From NCBI GenBank assembly GCA_002699025.1, contig PABA01000110.1, positions 1 through 64,000 of the forward strand: a DNA stretch of 64,000 nucleotides, read 5' to 3'. Below the pieces are notes generated by a model, which did not search any database, was not told the DNA's origin, and was given only the letters and a program-made list of their open reading frames with translations. This stretch comes from Sandaracinus sp. Lineage in GTDB: Bacteria > Myxococcota_A > Polyangia > Polyangiales > Houyiibacteriaceae. Position numbers and translations under genes: made by a program. Positions within the stretch are counted from its first letter, which is position 1; each line of letters begins with the position of its first letter. This document shows positions 17,218-57,370 of the stretch, one piece after another.

Positions 17218-17690
17218 GGGGATCCCTCCCTTGGGTCGGGATGCTCTCCGCCGTCCGCCGTCCGTGCTGGCGCTGAGCTTCGCGGTCCATGCCGTTTCGC
17301 GGAGAGGGCTGCGCGGGCGTGGGATCCCTCCCTTTGGTCGGGATGCCGTCCGCCGTCCGCTCTCCGCGGTCCGTGCTGGCGCTGGGCTTCCACGGTCCAT
17401 GCCGCTTCGCGGAGAGGGCTGCGCGGGCGTGGGATCCCTCCCTTTGGTCGGGATGCTCTCCGCGGTCCGCTCTCCGCGGTCCGTGCTGGCGCTGGGCTCC
17501 ACGGTCCATGCCGCTTCGCGGAGAGGCCCGGCGAGAGCTGCGCGGGCGTGGAATCCCTCCCTTGGGTCGGGATGCTCTCCGCCGTCCGCTCTCCGCCGTC
17601 CGTGCTGGCGCTGGGCTTCCACGGTCCATGCCGCTTCGCGGAGAGGCGCGGCGTGAGCTGCGCCTTTGGGGCTCCTTCCGGTCGCCTGGC
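17218..17690 (+). repeat. R2 repeat array, four to five copies
   Basis: Four copies of a roughly 103-119 bp unit start near 17218, 17321, 17431 and 17550, with a partial fifth from about 17635. Each contains a CTCCCTT(T/G)GGTCGGGATG core, a run of GTCCGC words and a CGTGCTGGCGCTG segment. The array fills most of the 544-nt spacer between the pirin stop (17730) and the MBL start (17185). R2 recurs at 47835-47897 (same strand), and at 49640-49770 and 57000-57370 (opposite strand). Open frames through it are artefacts. Confidence 0.88.
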
Positions 17691-31135: not shown

Positions 31136-33220
31136 GTGGCGTGGAGCGAGGTGGAGAAGCGGGCGGCCCGCGCGGCCCGGGCGCGGGACGCGGCCGTGGA
31201 CGCCTCCGCGCGGCGGACCCACGGCGTCGTGCATACGCCCCCCGCCCTCTGCCGTTACGTGGTCGAGCGGGCCGACGCGGCGCTCCGGCGCGCGGGGGTC
31301 GAGGGGGGGCTCGCGGACCCGCGCGTCACGCTCGTCGATCCCGCCTGCGGCCCCGGCGGGTTCCTCGCGGCGGCGCTCGGTCTCGCGGGGGCGCGGGAGA
31401 GCGCGCCGGCGGCCTGTCGCGGCCTGGAGCGGGACCCGGCGGCGCTCGCGGAGGCGGCGGAGGTGCTCGGGGAGGCCTTCGAGGAGGCGGGCTGGCCCCT
31501 GAGCCTCGAGCCGGGGGACACGCTCGCGAGCCTGGAGGGCACTTCCGCCGAGGACGTGCTGGTCGTCTTCGGCAACCCGCCCTGGGCCGGGCGCTCCGGG
31601 AGCAAGACGGCGCTCCTCGAGGGGCTGCTCGAGGACTTCCGGCGGGACGCGCACGGGGCGCGGCTGACGGAGCGGAAGCTCGGCGTGCTCTCGGACGCCT
31701 ACGTGCGCTTCTGGCGCTGGGCGGCGGAGGGGGTGCGGCGGGCGCCGGGCGGCGGGGTCGTGGCGCTGGTGACGAACGCCTCCTTCCTGGACGGCCCGGT
31801 GCATCGGGGCATGCGCGGGGCGCTGGCGCGCTGGATGGACGGCGTGGAGGTGCTGGACCTCGGCGGGAGCGCGCTGGTCGCGCAGAAGAAGGGGGAGCGC
31901 GACGAGAACGTCTTCGGCGTGCGGCCGGCGGTGGCCGTGACCGTGGCCTGGCGCGCGGGCGGCGGCGAGGCGGGCGAGGCGGAGGGGGCGACGGATGCCG
32001 CGGCGAACGGCGCGGCGGACCCGGGGGCGGAGGAAGGCCGGGCTGGTTCCGTCGGGGGCGCCGGAGGCGGCCGAGACGCGGAGGACGCCGCGCAGGCCAC
32101 GCTCGCGCTCGGGGCGGAGTCGTCGGCGCCCGGGCCCCGCGTCGCCACGGCGGAACCGGCTGCCGAAGAGGAGCCCCCGCCGGAGCCGAGCACGGCCGAA
32201 GGCGAGGGCGCGGGGGCGGGGGCGAACGCCGCGCTCGCCGAGGTCCGCGTCATGGCCCTTCGCGGCCGGCGCGACGCCAAGCTCCGCGCCCTCGGCCACG
32301 CGCTCTCGGCCTTCCGCGCCGTCGACCCCCTCGGCCCCTGGCGCCTCCCCCCCTCGCTCGGCGTCACCGAGAGCTGGCCCGAGGGCTGGCGCCCGATCGA
32401 CGCGCTCTTCCCCTTCCATCGCGAAGGCGTGCAGACGAACCGGGACGCCGTCGCCATCGACGCGAGCCGCCACGCGCTCGTCGGGCGCCTCCAGACCTTC
32501 GCCATGGGCCTGGCGGACCCGCGCCTCGAGGTCGCCCGCACCGAGCGCGGCCACTACGACCCGGAGAAGGCGCGCCGCGTCGTCGCCGAGGCCCTCGCCG
32601 AGGATCCCGACGGCGGCACCATCGTCCGCCCGATCGCCTACCGCCCCTTCGATCGCCGCTGGCTCGCCGCCGCCGCCCCGCTCTGCCATCGGCCGCGCCC
32701 GGCGCTCCTGAAGGCCATGGACGCCTCGGAGTTCGCGCTGCTCACGGTCCGAAAGGATCGGGGCGAGCGCGCCTGGACCCATGCGGCCGCCTCCCGCGCG
32801 GTCCCCGACAACTGCTTCCTCTCGGCCCGCTCGAGCTGCCGGACGCGCGCCTTCCCCACCCACGACCCCGGGGGTGCGCCGAACCTCTCCGAGGAGGCCG
32901 AGGGCTGGCTGCGCGGCGTCGGGCGCGGCGACGCGGCCGATCTGCTCGCCTACGCCCTCGCCGTGCTCTGCTCGCCGGTCTACCGAGGGCGCTACGGCTG
33001 GCTGCTCCGCTTCGGCTACCCGGTGCTGCCGGCGCCCGAGCCCGCGAGCTGGCCGAGCGTCGTGGAGGCGGGCCGAGCGCTGGTGGAGCGGTTTCTCGCC
33101 GAGCCCGCGGGCGATCCGGAGCTGGCCGTCGTCGGCCATTGGGAGGTGGAGGCGCCGGCCGGGTTCGGCGCGGCGGTGGCGGCGGCCGCGGCGGCGGTGG
33201 CGCCGCTCCTCGAGGGATAG
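31136..33220 (+). CDS. Orphan type ISP-like adenine DNA methyltransferase
   Basis: A 694-residue class I methylase. Motif X-like HTPPALCRYVV (33-43) precedes the SAM motif DPACGPGGF (68-76) and the catalytic NPPW (147-150), typical of N6-adenine methylases. After a Gly/Ala/Glu-rich low-complexity linker (about 265-375) comes a target-recognition region with IDALFPFHREGVQTNRDAV, IAYRPFDRRW and YALAVLCSPVYRGRYGWLLRFGYPVLP. These motifs match the specificity half of type ISP (LlaGI-like) and type IIG enzymes. No helicase or nuclease domain is present, and none lies nearby. GTG 31136 is the preferred start; ATG 31073, overlapping the sigma gene, is an alternative. It may be a solitary regulator-type methylase. 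Confidence 0.82.
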   Translation: MAWSEVEKRAARAARARDAAVDASARRTHGVVHTPPALCRYVVERADAALRRAGVEGGLADPRVTLVDPACGPGGFLAAALGLAGARESAPAACRGLERDPAALAEAAEVLGEAFEEAGWPLSLEPGDTLASLEGTSAEDVLVVFGNPPWAGRSGSKTALLEGLLEDFRRDAHGARLTERKLGVLSDAYVRFWRWAAEGVRRAPGGGVVALVTNASFLDGPVHRGMRGALARWMDGVEVLDLGGSALVAQKKGERDENVFGVRPAVAVTVAWRAGGGEAGEAEGATDAAANGAADPGAEEGRAGSVGGAGGGRDAEDAAQATLALGAESSAPGPRVATAEPAAEEEPPPEPSTAEGEGAGAGANAALAEVRVMALRGRRDAKLRALGHALSAFRAVDPLGPWRLPPSLGVTESWPEGWRPIDALFPFHREGVQTNRDAVAIDASRHALVGRLQTFAMGLADPRLEVARTERGHYDPEKARRVVAEALAEDPDGGTIVRPIAYRPFDRRWLAAAAPLCHRPRPALLKAMDASEFALLTVRKDRGERAWTHAAASRAVPDNCFLSARSSCRTRAFPTHDPGGAPNLSEEAEGWLRGVGRGDAADLLAYALAVLCSPVYRGRYGWLLRFGYPVLPAPEPASWPSVVEAGRALVERFLAEPAGDPELAVVGHWEVEAPAGFGAAVAAAAAAVAPLLEG

Positions 33221-38827: not shown

Positions 38828-40005
38828 GGGAGCTCGCGAGCCCGCCGGTCGAGCGGGCCTTCGTCGACGAGGCGCTCCTCGAGGCCGCCTGGGAGCCGGC
38901 CGGAGCCCTCGTCGAGGAGGCCCGCGCCACCGAGGAGGCCGCCGCGAACGCCGGCGAAGCCCTCCGCGCGCTCGTGCGCCTCTACGGCGAGCGGGGCCTC
39001 CTCCGCCTGGTCACCACCGAGGCCTTCGGTGGCGCCGCCGCGGCCGTCTCGAGCCGGGCCCTCTGCCTCGTGCGCGAGCGCCTCGGTCATGCGTCGCCCC
39101 TCTGCGAGCTCGCCTTCGCCATGCAGGGGCTCGGCAGCTACCCGATGACGCACGCCGCCCTCGAGCTCGGCACCCCCGCCGCGGCCGAGCTCTACCTGCC
39201 GCGCGTCGTCTCGGGCGAGGCCGTCGCCGCCTTCGCGCTCACCGAGCCCGGCGCCGGGACCGACCTCGGCGGCATCGTCACGACCGCGCGCCGCGAGGGC
39301 GACGAGTACGTCCTCGACGGCGAGAAGATCTACATCTCCAACGCCGGCGTCGCCGACGTCTACGTGGTCTTCGCGGCCACCGCCCCGCCGGGCGAGCGCC
39401 GCCGCCTCAGCGCCTTCGCCGTGCCCGCCGACGCCGCGGGCCTCGAGACGGCGCCCCAGCCCGTGCTCGGCGGCCACCCCATCGGGCGCGTGCTCCTCGA
39501 CGGGGTCCGCGTGCCGGCCGCCATGCGCCTCGGCGAGGAGGGCCGCGGGCTCGGCCTCGCGCTCGCCACGCTCCACCGCTTCCGGCCCACCGTCGGCGCC
39601 GCCGCCCTGGGCTTCGCGCAGCGGGCCCTCGACGAGTCCGTCGCGCACGTGAAGCGCCGCGAGCAGTTCGGGGCGCCGCTCGCCGAGCTCCCGCTCGTGC
39701 AGGCGCGGCTCGCGGACATGGCCTGCGAGCTCGAGGCCGCGCGCCTGCTCGTCTACCGGGCCGCCGCGACCCTCGACGCCGGGGAGGAGCGCGGGGCCGT
39801 GGCCCGCACCGGCTCGATGGCGAAGCTCGTCGCGACCGAGGCCGCGCAGCGGGTCATCGACTCGGCGGTGCAGCTCCACGGCGGGAGCGGCGTGGACACG
39901 CGCGGCGTCGTCGCGCGGCTCTACGAAGAGGTGCGGGCGCTCCGGATCTACGAGGGCACGAACGACGTGCAGAAGCTGCTGATCGCCCGCGAGCTCTTGA
40001 AGTAG
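38824..40005 (+). CDS. Acyl-CoA dehydrogenase
   Basis: A 393-residue flavoenzyme that desaturates an acyl-CoA. The family signatures AFALTEPGAGTDLGG (near 140) and SVAHVKRREQFGAPLAELPLVQ are seen, and the C-terminal RIYEGTNDVQKLLIARELLK carries the expected Glu-Gly-Thr/Asp pattern near the active site. The GTG start at 38824 overlaps the preceding stop (GTGA), so translation is coupled. It probably acts on the product of the RidA/hydratase genes. The electron acceptor (ETF) is not encoded nearby. Confidence 0.93.
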   Translation: MRELASPPVERAFVDEALLEAAWEPAGALVEEARATEEAAANAGEALRALVRLYGERGLLRLVTTEAFGGAAAAVSSRALCLVRERLGHASPLCELAFAMQGLGSYPMTHAALELGTPAAAELYLPRVVSGEAVAAFALTEPGAGTDLGGIVTTARREGDEYVLDGEKIYISNAGVADVYVVFAATAPPGERRRLSAFAVPADAAGLETAPQPVLGGHPIGRVLLDGVRVPAAMRLGEEGRGLGLALATLHRFRPTVGAAALGFAQRALDESVAHVKRREQFGAPLAELPLVQARLADMACELEAARLLVYRAAATLDAGEERGAVARTGSMAKLVATEAAQRVIDSAVQLHGGSGVDTRGVVARLYEEVRALRIYEGTNDVQKLLIARELLK

Positions 40006-46641: not shown

Positions 46642-47754
46642 TCAGTGGCTCGGCGCCGGCGGGTGCCGGTTCAGCTCTTCGGCCTGCTCCTCGAGGTGCC
46701 AGGGCCGCTCCGCGTAGACGTCGTCGAAGAGCGTCTCGCGTCCGAGCATCGGGAGCTCCTCGACGCGGCGGATGGCCGCGAGGATCTCCTCCGTGAGCTC
46801 CTTCTCGAGCGCCGCGCGGCCGTCCTCGTCGACGAGGCCCCGCTGCTGCAGGTAGCGCTCGAAGCGAAGCACCGGGTCCTTCTTTCGCCAGGCCTCGACC
46901 TCGGCCTCGTCGCGATAGCGCGTCGGGTCGTCGCTCGAGCTGTGGGCGCCCATGCGGTAGGTGACGGCCTCGATGAAGGTCGGGCCCTCGCCGGCGCGGG
47001 CGCGCTCGATGGCGGCGCCGATGACCGCGTGGCAGGCGAGGATGTCGTTGCCGTCGACGCGGATGCCCGGGAGGCCGTAGGCGTGCGCCTTCACGGCGAA
47101 GGTCTCCGAGGCCGTCTGCTTGCTGCTCGGCACGCTGATCGCCCAGTGGTTGTTCTGGCAGATGAGCACGCAGGGCGGCTTGGCGACGCCGGCGAAGTTC
47201 GTCGCCGTGTGGAAGTCGGGCTCGCTCGTGGCGCCGTCGCCCGTGAAGCCGACCGTGACCACGTCGTCGTCGCCGCGCAGCTTGGCGGCCCAGGCGGCGC
47301 CGACGGCCTGGGGGAGCTGCGGGCCGAGGCAGCTCGACCAGCTCACGTGGTTCACCGCGCGCCCGGCCATGTGCATGGGCTGCTGGCGGCCCTTGTTCAC
47401 GTCGCCCGAGTTCCCGTAGATCTGCGCGAGCCAGGTCTCGAGGGGGAAGCCGCGGACCAGCATGATCACGGCCTCGCGGAGCGCCTGGAAGACCCAGTCC
47501 TGCGGCTGGAGGTTCACGGCCGTGGCGATGGGCGTGGCCTCCTGGCCCGTGCTCGCGCCGTAGAAGCCGACCTTGCCCTGGCGCTGGCGCATCAGCATCC
47601 GCTCGTCGATGAGGCGGATGCGGAGCATGTGGCGGAAGAGCGCGAGGAGCGCGTCGTCGTCGAGCGCCGGAGCCTTCGCCTCGTCGACGGTGCCGTCCTC
47701 GCGGAGCACCTGGTAGAGGCCGAGGCTGGGGTGGTCGGGGGGCAGGGGGGGCAT
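46642..47754 (-). CDS. 2-oxoacid dehydrogenase E1 alpha subunit (branched-chain type)
   Basis: A 370-residue thiamine-diphosphate subunit. The TPP-binding signature GDGATSEPDFHTATNFAGV (near 175) and ICQNNHWAIS are intact, and YRMGAHSSSDDPTRYR is the phosphorylation-loop sequence typical of branched-chain 2-oxoacid dehydrogenases. Its partner E1 beta and E2 genes are not beside it, which is unusual, although lpd and lipB follow. Branched-chain rather than pyruvate use is inferred from the loop and length. A promoter is predicted at 47766-47793. Confidence 0.9.
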   Translation of the reverse strand: MPPLPPDHPSLGLYQVLREDGTVDEAKAPALDDDALLALFRHMLRIRLIDERMLMRQRQGKVGFYGASTGQEATPIATAVNLQPQDWVFQALREAVIMLVRGFPLETWLAQIYGNSGDVNKGRQQPMHMAGRAVNHVSWSSCLGPQLPQAVGAAWAAKLRGDDDVVTVGFTGDGATSEPDFHTATNFAGVAKPPCVLICQNNHWAISVPSSKQTASETFAVKAHAYGLPGIRVDGNDILACHAVIGAAIERARAGEGPTFIEAVTYRMGAHSSSDDPTRYRDEAEVEAWRKKDPVLRFERYLQQRGLVDEDGRAALEKELTEEILAAIRRVEELPMLGRETLFDDVYAERPWHLEEQAEELNRHPPAPSH

Positions 47755-47834: not shown

Positions 47835-47897
47835 GTGGGTCGTGATCCCTTCCTCCGGTCGGGATGCCGTCCGCCATCCGCTCTCCGCGTTCCGTGG
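47835..47897 (+). repeat. R2 repeat, single left copy
   Basis: This 63-bp stretch holds the R2 core GGTCGGGATGCCGTCCGCC after a GATCCCTTCCT-like start and before GCTCTCCGCGTTCCG, the same order as in the 17218 array. It lies upstream of the E1 alpha gene. A reverse-oriented R2 lies at 49640-49770, so the two bracket the lipoprotein gene pair. Confidence 0.8.
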
Positions 47898-48019
47898 CGC
47901 AGGCATCGACGCCACTCCGACGGTCACGTCCGCCCGCTCCAGCCGAGCGCACCCTGCGCACGGCGAGACCCCGACTCCGCGCCGCACGAGCAACGCGGAA
48001 GGATGACGCTCCCGAGCTC

Positions 48020-48150
48020 CCGGACCCCCGCGGCCAAAGGCCGCTCGTCGCCGAAGGCGGCGAAACCCGGACCCCCCGGCCGAAGGCCGCCCGAAGGCGG
48101 CGAAACCCGGATCCCCGCGGCTGAAGCCCGCCTCGCCCGAAGGCCGCTAC
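48020..48150 (+). repeat. R3 repeat, left array
   Basis: About two and a half copies of a 40-55 bp unit with the words CCGCGGCC(A/G)AAGGCCGC and CCGAAGGCGGCGAAACCCGG. The array abuts the stop of the minus-strand lipoprotein gene (48151). Its first copy is about 94% identical, in reverse orientation, to 49506-49562. The GGCCNAAGGCC and GCCGAAGGCGGC words can form small hairpins. The rest of the 396-nt spacer from 47755 holds the promoter and R2 copy described here and no gene. Confidence 0.85.
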
Positions 48151-48591
48151 TCAGCGCGCGGCCGGCAGCTCCTGGAAGAGCACGACCCGCCAGCGCTCGC
48201 CGCCGTCCTCGAGGGGCTCGCTCACCACCGGCACCTCGACCTCGCGTCCCGCCCCGCGCACGACCACCACGCCCGCGCCGTCCTCCACGCGCGCCTCGAG
48301 CTCGCGCAGCGGCACGCGCAGCCGGAAGGTGCCCGGCGCGATCATCTCCCAGGGCGCCAGCTCGCGCCGGGCGAGGTTGCTCGCCCGCCGGGCCCGCCGC
48401 TCGAGCTCCTGCCGGCTCGCCGGGTCGAGGAGCGCGAAGGCGTCCGCGCGCGCGTCCCCGTCGTACTCGCTCCGCTCCATCGCCGCGACGAAGGCGCGGA
48501 TGGCCCCCTCCGGCGTGGCGTCCGGGGGCGGCTCCGCGCACCCGGCGAGCGCCGCGAGGGCGAGCAGAACGGACCGGCCACGGAAGCGCAC
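48151..48591 (-). CDS. Small lipoprotein of unknown function
   Basis: A 146-residue exported protein. From GTG 48591 the N-terminus is a lipoprotein signal ending in ALAALAGC (Cys about residue 18-21), followed by a helical segment (TPEGAIRAFVAAMERSEYDG) and a small beta-rich domain with RVPLRELEARVEDGAGVVVV. The fold resembles small NTF2-like or DUF4878-like lipoproteins, but no family is clear. The longer frame to 48903 overlaps the divergent lipoprotein gene and reads poorly, so the GTG is preferred. Its stop is immediately followed by the R3 array. Confidence 0.75.
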   Translation of the reverse strand: MRFRGRSVLLALAALAGCAEPPPDATPEGAIRAFVAAMERSEYDGDARADAFALLDPASRQELERRARRASNLARRELAPWEMIAPGTFRLRVPLRELEARVEDGAGVVVVRGAGREVEVPVVSEPLEDGGERWRVVLFQELPAAR

Positions 48592-48724
48592 CGGCCGAGC
48601 CTGGAGAGCCCGCGCGCCCCGCGCAAGCCCCCCGCCGGGGCAGCTCGCCTCGCCGCCGTGACGGTGCGCCCCGCTCGCCGCGTCCACCGCGGGTCGGCCC
48701 GCCCCGTGCAACGTCTCGCGGACC

Positions 48725-49489
48725 ATGCGCACCCCGCGACTCCTCCCGATCCCCGCCCTCCTCCTCGCCGCCTGCGCGCACGACCCCGCCCCGCCCGCGG
48801 CCACCCCGAGCGCCGACCCGACCCCCATCGAGGGCCCGGCCGGGCTCGACGCCGAGCGCGAGACGCCCAGCCGCGTCGACGAGCTCGCCGCCGCGCTCAG
48901 CACCCCCTCCTACCGCGTCGACGTCGGCGGCTTCGTCCACCGCGCCGAGCACCTCCCGACGCGCGGCCGCCGCCTGGTCACGCCCGACGCCACGCTCGAG
49001 GTCTACCCCTTCGAGGACGCGCGCCGCGCCGCGCGCTTCGCCGTGCGCATCAGCCCTGACGGCCGCCACGTCGACGGCAAGCGCTTCCCGTGGCTCGAGG
49101 CCACCCACTTCTGGCTCCTCGGTCGCCACCTGATCCTGCTCCGGGGCGTCGAGCCCACGCTGATGGCGCGCCTGGACCGGCACCCGAGCGCCATCCGGCT
49201 CACCGAGCGCATGGACCAGGCCGACCCCACCCGCGCCGCGGCGCGCGCCGGGGAGCGCGTCCGCCGCGCCGTCGCCACCCGCCTCGAGACCACCCAGGGC
49301 GCGCTGCGCGTCCGCGAGGTCGAGCTCGTCCGCTGGGAGGCCCCCTGCGAGGCGCTCCAGACCGACGCGAGCACCGCCTCCTGCGCCGAGCCCCTCCTCG
49401 GCTGGCGCGTCACCCTCGACCACCACGACCAGCCCCTGATCGCTCGCACCGATCTCATGGGCGCCCGCCTCGCCATCGAGGGCAGCTGA
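48725..49489 (+). CDS. Lipoprotein of unknown function
   Basis: A 254-residue exported protein. The signal peptide ends ALLLAACAHD, with the lipidated Cys at residue 17. The mature part starts with a Pro/Ala/Thr-rich linker and then an unrecognised domain with SYRVDVGGFVHRAEHLPTRGRR, FWLLGRHLILLRGVE and a late Cys pair (CEALQTDASTASC). It is divergent from the small lipoprotein gene with a 133-nt spacer, and the R3 right copy starts 17 nt after its stop. The pair lies within nested inverted repeats. Confidence 0.8.
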   Translation: MRTPRLLPIPALLLAACAHDPAPPAATPSADPTPIEGPAGLDAERETPSRVDELAAALSTPSYRVDVGGFVHRAEHLPTRGRRLVTPDATLEVYPFEDARRAARFAVRISPDGRHVDGKRFPWLEATHFWLLGRHLILLRGVEPTLMARLDRHPSAIRLTERMDQADPTRAAARAGERVRRAVATRLETTQGALRVREVELVRWEAPCEALQTDASTASCAEPLLGWRVTLDHHDQPLIARTDLMGARLAIEGS

Positions 49490-49505
49490 CCGCGCTGCGC
49501 GCGGC

Positions 49506-49562
49506 GGGGACCGGGTTTCGCCGCCTTCGGCGCCGAGCGGCCTTCGGCCGCGGGGGTCGGGG
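49506..49562 (-). repeat. R3 repeat, right copy (inverted)
   Basis: The reverse complement of this stretch matches 48020-48075 with about three differences in 52 positions. It starts 17 nt after the lipoprotein stop. It contains GCGGCCTTCGGCCGC, a hairpin-forming word, and TTTCGCCGCCTTCGGCG. Confidence 0.88.
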
Positions 49563-49639
49563 AACTGCGCGGCGTGGATCTCTCGTGGGGCTCGAGGGCG
49601 TCCGCAAGCGGCCACGGCGCGCTCCGGGTCTCGTCATGG

Positions 49640-49770
49640 CCGCCACGGAAAGCGGACGGCGGCGGCGTTCGCCCGCTCCGCGAACGCGGCCTCCTGCGTG
49701 CCGTCGGCGCTGCCGCCACGGAAAGCGGACGGCGGACAGCGGACGGCATCCCGACCGAAGGGAGGGATCA
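49640..49770 (-). repeat. R2 repeat, right copy (inverted)
   Basis: Read on the minus strand it begins GATCCCTCCCTTCGGTCGGG, then runs through GTCCGC words to TTTCCGTGGCGGC, the R2 order. A second, shorter copy of the last part lies about 72 bp further on. It starts at the stop codon of the phosphoesterase gene. It mirrors the left R2 copy at 47835-47897. Confidence 0.85.
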
Positions 49771-51138
49771 GCTGGAGACGAGCACGATCTTCGTGACCTC
49801 CGGCGGCGAGAAGAGTCGCGCCGGCGGGCCGGCCGTGCCGAAGCCGCGGTTCACGTAGAGCGTCCCGCCCTCGAGCTCGTAGCGGCCGCGCACCCAGCCG
49901 TGCGGCACGACCATCTCGGCCGGGTTGTAGCCGAAGCAGATCTGCCCGCCGTGCGTGTGCCCGCTGAGCTGGAGCTGCACCTGCCCCGCCGCTTCCTCGA
50001 AGAAGACCGGCTGATGCGCGAGCAGCACCTTCGGTACGTCCGGCGGCACCATGGCCAGCGCCCGCCCGAGGTCCGGCCCGCGCCCCGGCCCACGCGCCCA
50101 GAGGTCGTCCACGCCGAGGAGCCCGAAGGCGCCGCCCGCGTCGCCGATGAGCCGGCCGCCGTTCACCAGCACGTGGGCCTCCGCGCGGCGGAGCGCGTCC
50201 ACCACCTCCTCCACGCCCGCGTAGTGGTCGTGGTTGCCGGGGATGGCGGCGACGCCGTCCCGCGTCAGGGGTCGGAGCTCCCGCACCAGGCGTCCGAGCA
50301 TCGGCGCGTAGGCCGGGTCGTGATCGAGCAGGTCCCCCGTGAGCACGACGAGGTCCGGCGCCGCGTCCCGCACGAGCGCCACGGCCGCGCGGAGCTCCGC
50401 CTCGCCGATGAAGGTGCCGAAGTGGATGTCCGAGAGCTGGGCGATGGTGTAGCCGTCGAGGGTCCGCGGCAGGCCCGGGAGGGCGATGGGCACCTCGTCG
50501 ATGGCGTAGTCGTGGCGCCCGAAGAGCGCCGCGTAGCCGCTCGAGCCGCCGGCTACCATCAGCGCCCCCGCCGACGCCCGCTGGAGGAACGCGCGCCGCC
50601 CGCCGAGCGTCGGCGCCGGTCCCGGCTCCACCGGCGCCCCAACCGGCGGCGCCCCAATCGTTGGCGCGTCGCGCGGAGGCGGGGGCGTCGCGTCTGCCGC
50701 GTCGACGTCGTCCAGCTCGCCGGAGCCCAGCTCGCCGGAGCCCGTCGCGCGCGCCGAGGAGGAGCCATCGCCCGTGGCTCCGCTCGCGGTCGCTCCCTGC
50801 TCGGGCGTCCCCGTGGCGCGCCGGCCTCGGAGCCGCTCGGCGACCCACCAGAGCCCGCCGAAGGCGTCGACGTGGAGCAGGAAGCCCGTCGCCAGCATCA
50901 CCGCGAGCACCACCAGCGTGCCGCCCACGGCCCCGGCCTCGAGCCAGCCGTCCGGCAGCACGCCACGCATGGCGCGCCCACCGAAGAGGAGCACCATGCC
51001 GAGCACGAAGAGCGCGGCCAGCGCCGCCTTCGCGCGCCGCCCGAGGCCCCAGACGCGCGCCGCCCGCCGGAAGACGTAGGCGTGCATGCCGCCGAGGACG
51101 ACGAAGAGGACGCTCAGGAAGATCAGCCAGCGGCTCAC
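49768..51138 (-). CDS. Membrane metallophosphoesterase (YkuE/YaeI-like)
   Basis: A 456-residue protein. Three N-terminal transmembrane helices (about 3-22, 32-50, 65-85) and an Ala/Gly-rich linker precede an internal twin-arginine-like segment (GGRRAFLQRASAGALMVAGG), then a calcineurin-type phosphoesterase with SDIHFGT, GDLLDHDP, GNHDHYAG and GHTHGGQI, the full metal-ligand set. Such enzymes cleave phosphodiesters or lipid headgroups at the outer face of the membrane. GTG 51138 follows GGAGGACCC, a strong ribosome site. It is divergent from the GGDEF gene with a 116-nt spacer. Confidence 0.9.
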   Translation of the reverse strand: MSRWLIFLSVLFVVLGGMHAYVFRRAARVWGLGRRAKAALAALFVLGMVLLFGGRAMRGVLPDGWLEAGAVGGTLVVLAVMLATGFLLHVDAFGGLWWVAERLRGRRATGTPEQGATASGATGDGSSSARATGSGELGSGELDDVDAADATPPPPRDAPTIGAPPVGAPVEPGPAPTLGGRRAFLQRASAGALMVAGGSSGYAALFGRHDYAIDEVPIALPGLPRTLDGYTIAQLSDIHFGTFIGEAELRAAVALVRDAAPDLVVLTGDLLDHDPAYAPMLGRLVRELRPLTRDGVAAIPGNHDHYAGVEEVVDALRRAEAHVLVNGGRLIGDAGGAFGLLGVDDLWARGPGRGPDLGRALAMVPPDVPKVLLAHQPVFFEEAAGQVQLQLSGHTHGGQICFGYNPAEMVVPHGWVRGRYELEGGTLYVNRGFGTAGPPARLFSPPEVTKIVLVSS

Positions 51139-56935: not shown

Positions 56936-56999
56936 AGCGCGACGACCCCAGCGTGAGCTCCAGCCCAAGCGGCAGCCCGAGCCGAAGCCGAAGCCGTCG

Positions 57000-57370
57000 G
57001 AGAGCGGACGGCGGAAGGCGGGGGCCGCCGCGACCGAAGGGAGCGGCGAATGCGAAGACCGGCCGCGTGCTCCGCGGAGCGGCCTGGCCGCGCGCCGACG
57101 GGCTGCCCCCGGCGGAGAGCGGACGGCGGAAGGCGGAGAGCCGGCGCGACCGAAGGGAGCGGGAGTGCGGAGACCGGCCGCGTACTCCGCGGAGCGGCCT
57201 GGCCGCGCGCCGACGGGCTGCCCCCGGCGGATAGCGGACGGCGGAAAGCGGAGAGCCGCCGCGACCGAAGGGAGCGGCGAACGCGGACGGCGGAAAGCGG
57301 AGAGCCGGCGCGACCGAAGGGAGCGGCGAACGCGGAGAGCCGGCGCGACCGAAGGGAGCGCCGAACGGAA
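57000..57370 (-). repeat. R2 repeat array, five copies (inverted)
   Basis: CGCGACCGAAGGGAGCG-type cores recur five times, with spacings of about 116 bp then shorter ones, each preceded by GCGGACGGCGGAA-like words and, in the first two, separated by a GCTCCGCGGAGCGGCCTGG-type block. It is R2 in the orientation opposite to the 17218 array. It fills the spacer between the convergent RND and thiolase genes; no gene is seen in the 614 nt from 56829 to 57442. Confidence 0.87.

Follow-up and report, generated by a model that had tools for sequence, protein, structure and literature searches.

Nested inverted repeats around two divergent lipoprotein genes of a Sandaracinus genome: a mirror order probably explained by gene layout

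Features of the lipoprotein locus

The window (the whole stretch of 64,000 nucleotides that was analysed) corresponds to contig C121 of a draft genome of 9.24 Mb in 238 contigs. Two divergent lipoprotein genes, designated lipoM and lipoP, were found to be enclosed by copies of two intergenic repeats, R2 and R3, with a pdhA-like gene and a metallophosphoesterase gene as the neighbours (Table 1). An earlier note on this DNA had proposed both genes to encode lipoproteins and had described the order R2(+), R3(+), gene(-), gene(+), R3(-), R2(-), in its own strand signs; this order was verified at the positions given for it, and a lipobox was identified near the N terminus of both products (LAGC for lipoM, LAAC for lipoP).

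The left R3 has its hairpins in the same sense as lipoM, with the R3 cluster starting 37 nt past the stop codon of this gene, and the right R3 has its hairpins in the same sense as lipoP, with the core located 18 nt past its stop. The left R2 presents its hairpin end towards the start of pdhA at a distance of 89 nt, while the hairpin end of the right R2 overlaps the TGA stop (49768) of the metallophosphoesterase gene. The mirror symmetry is incomplete, as a tandem partial R3 is present on the left only.

Table 1. Coordinates of the genes and repeats of the locus and of further repeat arrays in the window
Feature	Position	Strand	Basis and remarks
pdhA-like gene (dehydrogenase E1 component), left neighbour	46642..47754	-	Pfam PF00676, E 3e-85
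Left R2	47844..47911	+	hairpin and four heptads, degenerate tail; arm 47844-47896
Left R3	48011..48083	-	covariance model, 78.3 bits; core 48023-48074
Partial second R3, tandem	48072..48114	-	profile match, 26.3 bits
lipoM (small lipoprotein gene)	48151..48591	-	ORF and codon-usage gene call; lipobox; homologues
lipoP (second lipoprotein gene)	48725..49489	+	ORF and codon-usage gene call; divergent from lipoM
Right R3	49498..49570	+	covariance model, 78.1 bits; core 49508-49558
Right R2	49666..49774	-	arm 49717-49769; degenerate tail
Metallophosphoesterase gene, right neighbour	49768..51138	-	Pfam PF00149, E 4.5e-13; convergent with lipoP
Further R2 array	17221..17661	+	four units of ~110 nt
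R2-like array	56997..57323	-	variant hairpin GCTCCCTTCGGTCGCG

By protein similarity, the nearest named records of the pdhA-like product were from uncultured Myxococcota, followed by Minicystis, Sandaracinus and Sorangium. A Pfam scan of 40 window genes identified no recombinase or transposase families, and no Rfam families were found between positions 40000 and 56000. Elsewhere in the window, positions 31136-33220 encode a protein in which a Type ISP restriction specificity domain (PF18135) was the only Pfam domain found.

The R3 and R2 repeat families

Both repeats were identified as members of large families. R3 gave 65 BLAST matches in the genome, 100 occurrences of its exact 13-nt cores (0 for a reversed control) and 106 covariance-model matches over the 9.24 Mb, i.e. 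at least 106 copies. Among 33 other genomes of the same family the covariance model returned one weak R3-like match, and the core pattern was absent from 84,980 species genomes (own and very near genomes left out) and from viral contigs. Alignment of 38 copies showed R3 to be an element of ~60-70 nt consisting of two short hairpins with variable loops, often closed by UUCG. One closing pair, 40-56, is CG in 17 copies and GC in another 17; further inside, a pair has CG in 35 copies and UA in three.

For R2, 70 BLAST matches, 201 pattern matches (15 for a control) and at least 109 covariance-model matches were found in the genome, with no model match in the 33 other genomes of the family. The element spans ~105 nt and is composed of a hairpin, four degenerate heptads, a 28-nt spacer and a terminal CCGCG..CGCGG palindrome; in 40 aligned copies the hairpin is followed by four heptads of the form CNNTCCG and then by a tail ending CCGCNTTCGCGGAG. 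Hairpin pair 10-24 is CG in 32 copies and GC in 7, and another pair is AU in 34, CG in 4 and UA in one, the paired positions changing together. The structure of both families is argued from such paired changes because the single-strand folds of the whole elements did not exceed dinucleotide shuffles in stability (z 0.61 to 1.59).

R2 is part of a larger set of heptad elements in its own genome. The pattern TCCGCNNTCCGCNNTCCGC was found 420 times there and 0-2 times per genome in the 33 family genomes; its reversal gave 0 matches in the own genome. Exactly four TCCG were present in 144 of 189 heptad tracts, and a CCGC..GCGG palindrome follows 148 of 183 tracts (spacer ~28 nt, IQR 27-29) compared to 19% of control sites. 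Examples of these elements are found at loci L221, L222, L223 and L239, and as the two additional arrays of the window (17221-17661, 56997-57323). A 5' palindrome general to the heptad tracts was considered and rejected, upstream hairpin scores averaging 4.31 against 4.38 for control intergenic DNA; it is kept for the R2 subfamily only, where changes of paired bases support it.

The bases between the TCCGC blocks are restricted (CG 146, TT 122, TG 107 and TC 70, with CC 2 and GC 3), despite a genome of ~75% G+C (heptad tracts of loci L032-L111 and L221-L240). Occurrence of the heptads across phyla was also considered: at least 120 matches to four TCCGCNN units were found in IMG/VR contigs, yet the reversed control gave 93 and the units of the matches were mostly homogeneous, and for these reasons the candidate was rejected and spread beyond the own genome is not established. 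R2 arrays were frequently located at contig ends (C7, C34, C39, C72, C81, C101, C178, C202, C219 and C231). The assembly is therefore probably broken or collapsed at these arrays, making the copy numbers underestimates.

Orientation and clustering of the repeats

The position of the repeats relative to genes was examined on 688 kb of fetched DNA with genes called by codon usage, a sample chosen for repeat content, for which background rates are approximate. Among copies no more than 60 nt from a gene 3' end, the ratio of sense to antisense orientation was 28:2 for R3 (p = 9e-7) and 21:2 for R2 (p = 7e-5). One fixed end of the element was nearer to the gene in 44 of 50 R3 clusters (p = 3e-8) and in 41 of 54 R2 clusters (p = 2e-4), and in convergent gaps 16 of 17 R3 clusters showed the same direction relative to the nearest gene end. 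All four copies at the lipoprotein locus follow this orientation rule. The suggestion of the earlier note that the symmetry could come about from repeats favouring gene ends beside divergent genes is thus supported, and the orientation counts allow it to be expressed in numbers.

The families are also clustered. Fourteen pairs of R3 clusters lie less than 3 kb apart, compared to ~1.2 expected under uniform placement, and R3 and R2 come within 600 nt of each other at the two places in the window and at five others. Opposed R3 pairs exist elsewhere too, e.g. C61:114358(-)/114942(+) in a single convergent gap. Same-strand copies less than 400 nt apart have a mean similarity of 0.89 (R3) and 0.91 (R2), against 0.76 and 0.80 for distant copies; as nearby copies are more alike than distant ones, local copying or conversion among copies has probably occurred.

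Comparison of the repeat arms

The description of the R3 arms as near-identical was borne out, with three of 51 aligned columns differing (94% identity, inverted orientation) and a run of 22 identical nucleotides common to both arms. The R2 arms share 87% identity, also in inverted orientation. The weak similarity said to continue between R3 and R2 on each side was not recovered: the best local score was 15, against a mean of 15.8 for a null drawn from other intergenic DNA (p = 0.55).

As repeats, R2 and R3 stand overwhelmingly above chance. As pairs, the left R2 arm is matched by 10 of 78 other R2 copies as well as by the right arm, and the right R2 arm by 43 of 78 as well as by the left. The R3 pair is only marginally beyond chance, being tied by one of 40 other full copies, and 3.3% of all other R3 pairs reach its similarity; the two arms do head each other's similarity list, at 94% against a median of 82% to other copies. 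By these comparisons the arms of the window are family members and not a pair made for the locus.

lipoM and lipoP among related genomes

Homologues of lipoM were identified in 146 of 184 genomes of the order as a single copy, with a second, weaker match in one genome. Judged from these homologues, lipoM is an old, order-wide gene that is present in relatives without the repeats. It has no Pfam match and often adjoins pdhA, lpd or a metallophosphoesterase gene. Of 28 other relatives, two have a distant homologue of lipoP (32-37% identity), in each case near lipoM. No relation was found between the lipoM and lipoP proteins. The bodies of the two genes gave a local DNA score of 34 in inverted comparison, obtained without a null; this similarity was likewise discarded, the proteins being unrelated.

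With gene orders written so that pdhA is forward, the window reads phosphoesterase(+) lipoP(-) lipoM(+) pdhA(+). The order in G016 is phosphoesterase(+) lipoM(-) pdhA(+), and lipoM(-) pdhA(+) is found in G002, G006, G008, G009, G014 and G015, with lipoP(+) preceding this pair in G008 and G015. In G175 and G023, lipoM is also convergent with the phosphoesterase gene. A flipped lipoM occurs in another family as well (G025/L122), where the models gave no significant R2 or R3. As the orientation of lipoM differs from that of relatives, a past inversion is likely; in this lineage lipoM would have been flipped relative to the ancestral order, with both breakpoints in the gaps that carry repeats. The repeats could have brought about this flip, could have come in after it or could have no connection to it. 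The term invertible, as applied to the locus in the earlier note, does not hold for a module, but it does describe the history of the locus, in that lipoM is inverted relative to most relatives with breakpoints in these gaps.

Origin of the mirror order

The reading preferred here, to which a probability of about 0.82 is given, is that each of the four arms is an independent copy from one of two dispersed, lineage-specific intergenic repeat families and that their mirror order results from the layout of the genes. In both R3 and R2, the same end of the element is turned to the nearest gene boundary. One R3 lies directly after the stop codon of each lipoprotein gene, and the R2 of each flanking gap is anchored to the other neighbour, i.e. 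to the metallophosphoesterase stop on the right and the pdhA start on the left. Because the lipoprotein genes diverge and the orientation of the repeats is fixed, the order R2-R3-gene-gene-R3-R2 would arise with no special event. If each gap has one R2 and one R3 that face its opposite ends, we infer that this order is to be expected in ~40% of cases. The preference of R3 for 3' ends leaves little choice in the left gap, while the right gap has even odds because both of its ends are 3' ends. The family sizes, the orientation rule, the conserved stems, the absence from relatives and the unrelatedness of the two genes on which this account draws are established.

Inversion of the lipoprotein block by recombination between the R3 (or R2) arms, with the symmetry as its footprint or as a sign of continuing inversion, is considered unlikely. 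It would agree with the outgroup genomes, in seven of which (G002, G006, G008, G009, G014, G015 and G016) lipoM points away from pdhA while it points towards pdhA in the window, and with the convergence of lipoM and the adjacent metallophosphoesterase gene in G016, G175 and G023. The location of the breakpoints in the two repeat-bearing gaps, the origin of the repeats in the same lineage interval and the identical 22-nt run also fit such an event. However, one arm-to-arm flip predicts the order phosphoesterase+ lipoM- lipoP+ pdhA+, which was seen in no genome, and both of the genomes that possess the two genes carry lipoP+ lipoM- pdhA+, at least two steps away. Furthermore, the flipped state of G025/L122 exists without these repeats, the arms are not specially matched among the copies and the Pfam scan of 40 window genes gave no recombinase family.

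The mobile module of the earlier note, in which the R2 and R3 arms would be the ends of a transposable unit carrying the two lipoprotein genes, is largely refuted and is now very improbable. The nested inverted arms do enclose exactly two genes, and lipoP is patchy among relatives. The module fails nonetheless under the refuting conditions of the earlier note, because the same genes are present in relatives that lack the repeats and because the arms align about equally well to other copies in the genome; in addition, lipoM is beside pdhA in many of the 146 genomes that possess it, the arms are found at more than 100 places without these genes, and a transposase was found neither in the window nor, for the Y1 type, in the genome. 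An old inverted duplication of one arm plus its gene, also raised previously, can be given hardly any credence: the symmetric order and the 94% identity of the R3 arms are what it would produce, but the lipoM and lipoP proteins show no relation, the stretches separating R3 from R2 on the two sides are dissimilar, and the right R2 belongs to the stop codon of another gene, that of the metallophosphoesterase.

The layout account has points against it in turn. As the R3 arms top each other's similarity list, one may have been copied or converted locally from the other. The fold stabilities, which do not exceed those of shuffles, and the approximate background rates of the sampled 688 kb also count against it. 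The combination of chance and orientation rule may also be incomplete as a history, because the locus has changed its gene orientation relative to relatives.

Comparison to known repeat systems and possible function

R3 and R2 resemble REP elements and BIMEs in being short hairpins with more than 100 intergenic copies by gene 3' ends, and in forming species-restricted families whose members occur singly or clustered (PMC3733652, PMC2817692). REP elements concentrate near gene 3' ends (PMC3733652). Unlike REP elements, R3 consists of two hairpins in fixed direct orientation and lacks an unpaired GTAG or CGTC tag (in the 38-copy alignment CGTC was seen only within a stem, where it varies), while R2 is longer and modular. 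The genome also differs in having no RAYT: a search for the Y1 transposase (PF01797) gave 0 matches, with positive controls detected. REPs of the CGTC type have also been reported without a dedicated RAYT (PMC3733652). As regards the terminal inverted repeats of MITEs, the aligned ends of R2 and of R3 were not complementary.

By architecture alone, R2 can be likened to the pneumococcal BOX element, a modular dispersed intergenic element with an internal tandem sub-repeat, the transcripts of which are predicted to fold (PMC3049150). The sub-repeat of R2 is a 7-mer with a count nearly fixed at four, whereas that of BOX is the longer boxB in variable number (PMC3049150). Heptameric G-rich repeats of Xanthomonas and Nostoc (GGGANTN, mostly four units, 180+ sites per genome) are found on the sense strand close to stop codons, which they may overlap, or on the antisense strand near the starts of genes (PMC4692102). 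R2 shares with these the two variable positions, the usual four units and the sense-strand proximity to stop codons (PMC4692102), but its heptad is TCCGCNN and is set in a larger element with flanking hairpins. The Beggiatoaceae TAACTGA repeats (PMC4679880) are likewise abundant intergenic direct repeats of a heptamer; they differ from R2 in the heptamer itself, in their homogeneous units and in lying mostly just upstream of start codons (PMC4679880). R2 and R3 are not assigned to the REP, BOX or Xanthomonas groups, their broad kind being that of dispersed intergenic palindromic repeats. A literature search on such repeats in myxobacteria or Sandaracinus returned nothing relevant.

With respect to function, the position, polarity and conserved stems of the elements suggest a role at transcript ends, and we would put at roughly even odds that the R3 and R2 hairpins act at transcript 3' ends, in termination or in protection of the mRNA end. 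Among the features of intrinsic terminators, a hairpin and a position downstream of a gene are present, and the alignments are without a U tract. On the best-supported view, R2 and R3 are repeats of a selfish or domesticated kind that take up positions next to genes with a fixed polarity and have their hairpins within the 3' untranslated region of the upstream gene, both families presumably having spread by copying into gene-flanking DNA. A more speculative reading, which we regard as doubtful, would make R2 a single branch within a superfamily of modular gene-end elements specific to this lineage, a putative platform for a nucleic-acid-binding protein, spreading without a known transposase; the design of this superfamily would comprise four invariant TCCGC at 7-nt spacing with restricted NN (CG, TT, TG, TC, rarely CC/GC) and a CCGCG..CGCGG palindrome at a fixed 28 nt.

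Significance of the locus

The analysis removes a false lead, in that the nested symmetry at this locus comes from how the genes are laid out and does not testify to a mobile cassette. Mirror-image repeats flanking divergent genes need not be mobile or invertible where the repeat families have a preferred orientation towards gene ends. Comparable observations in repeat-rich genomes call for the same caution. The locus is real as sequence and is explained as layout, leaving it of modest interest in itself, with the main interest being the architecture of R2. Two myxobacterial repeat families for which no description was found have nevertheless been exposed through it. The four-heptad architecture of R2 is unusual and parallels the heptads of Xanthomonas, making it possible to examine whether the two share a function at transcript 3' ends.
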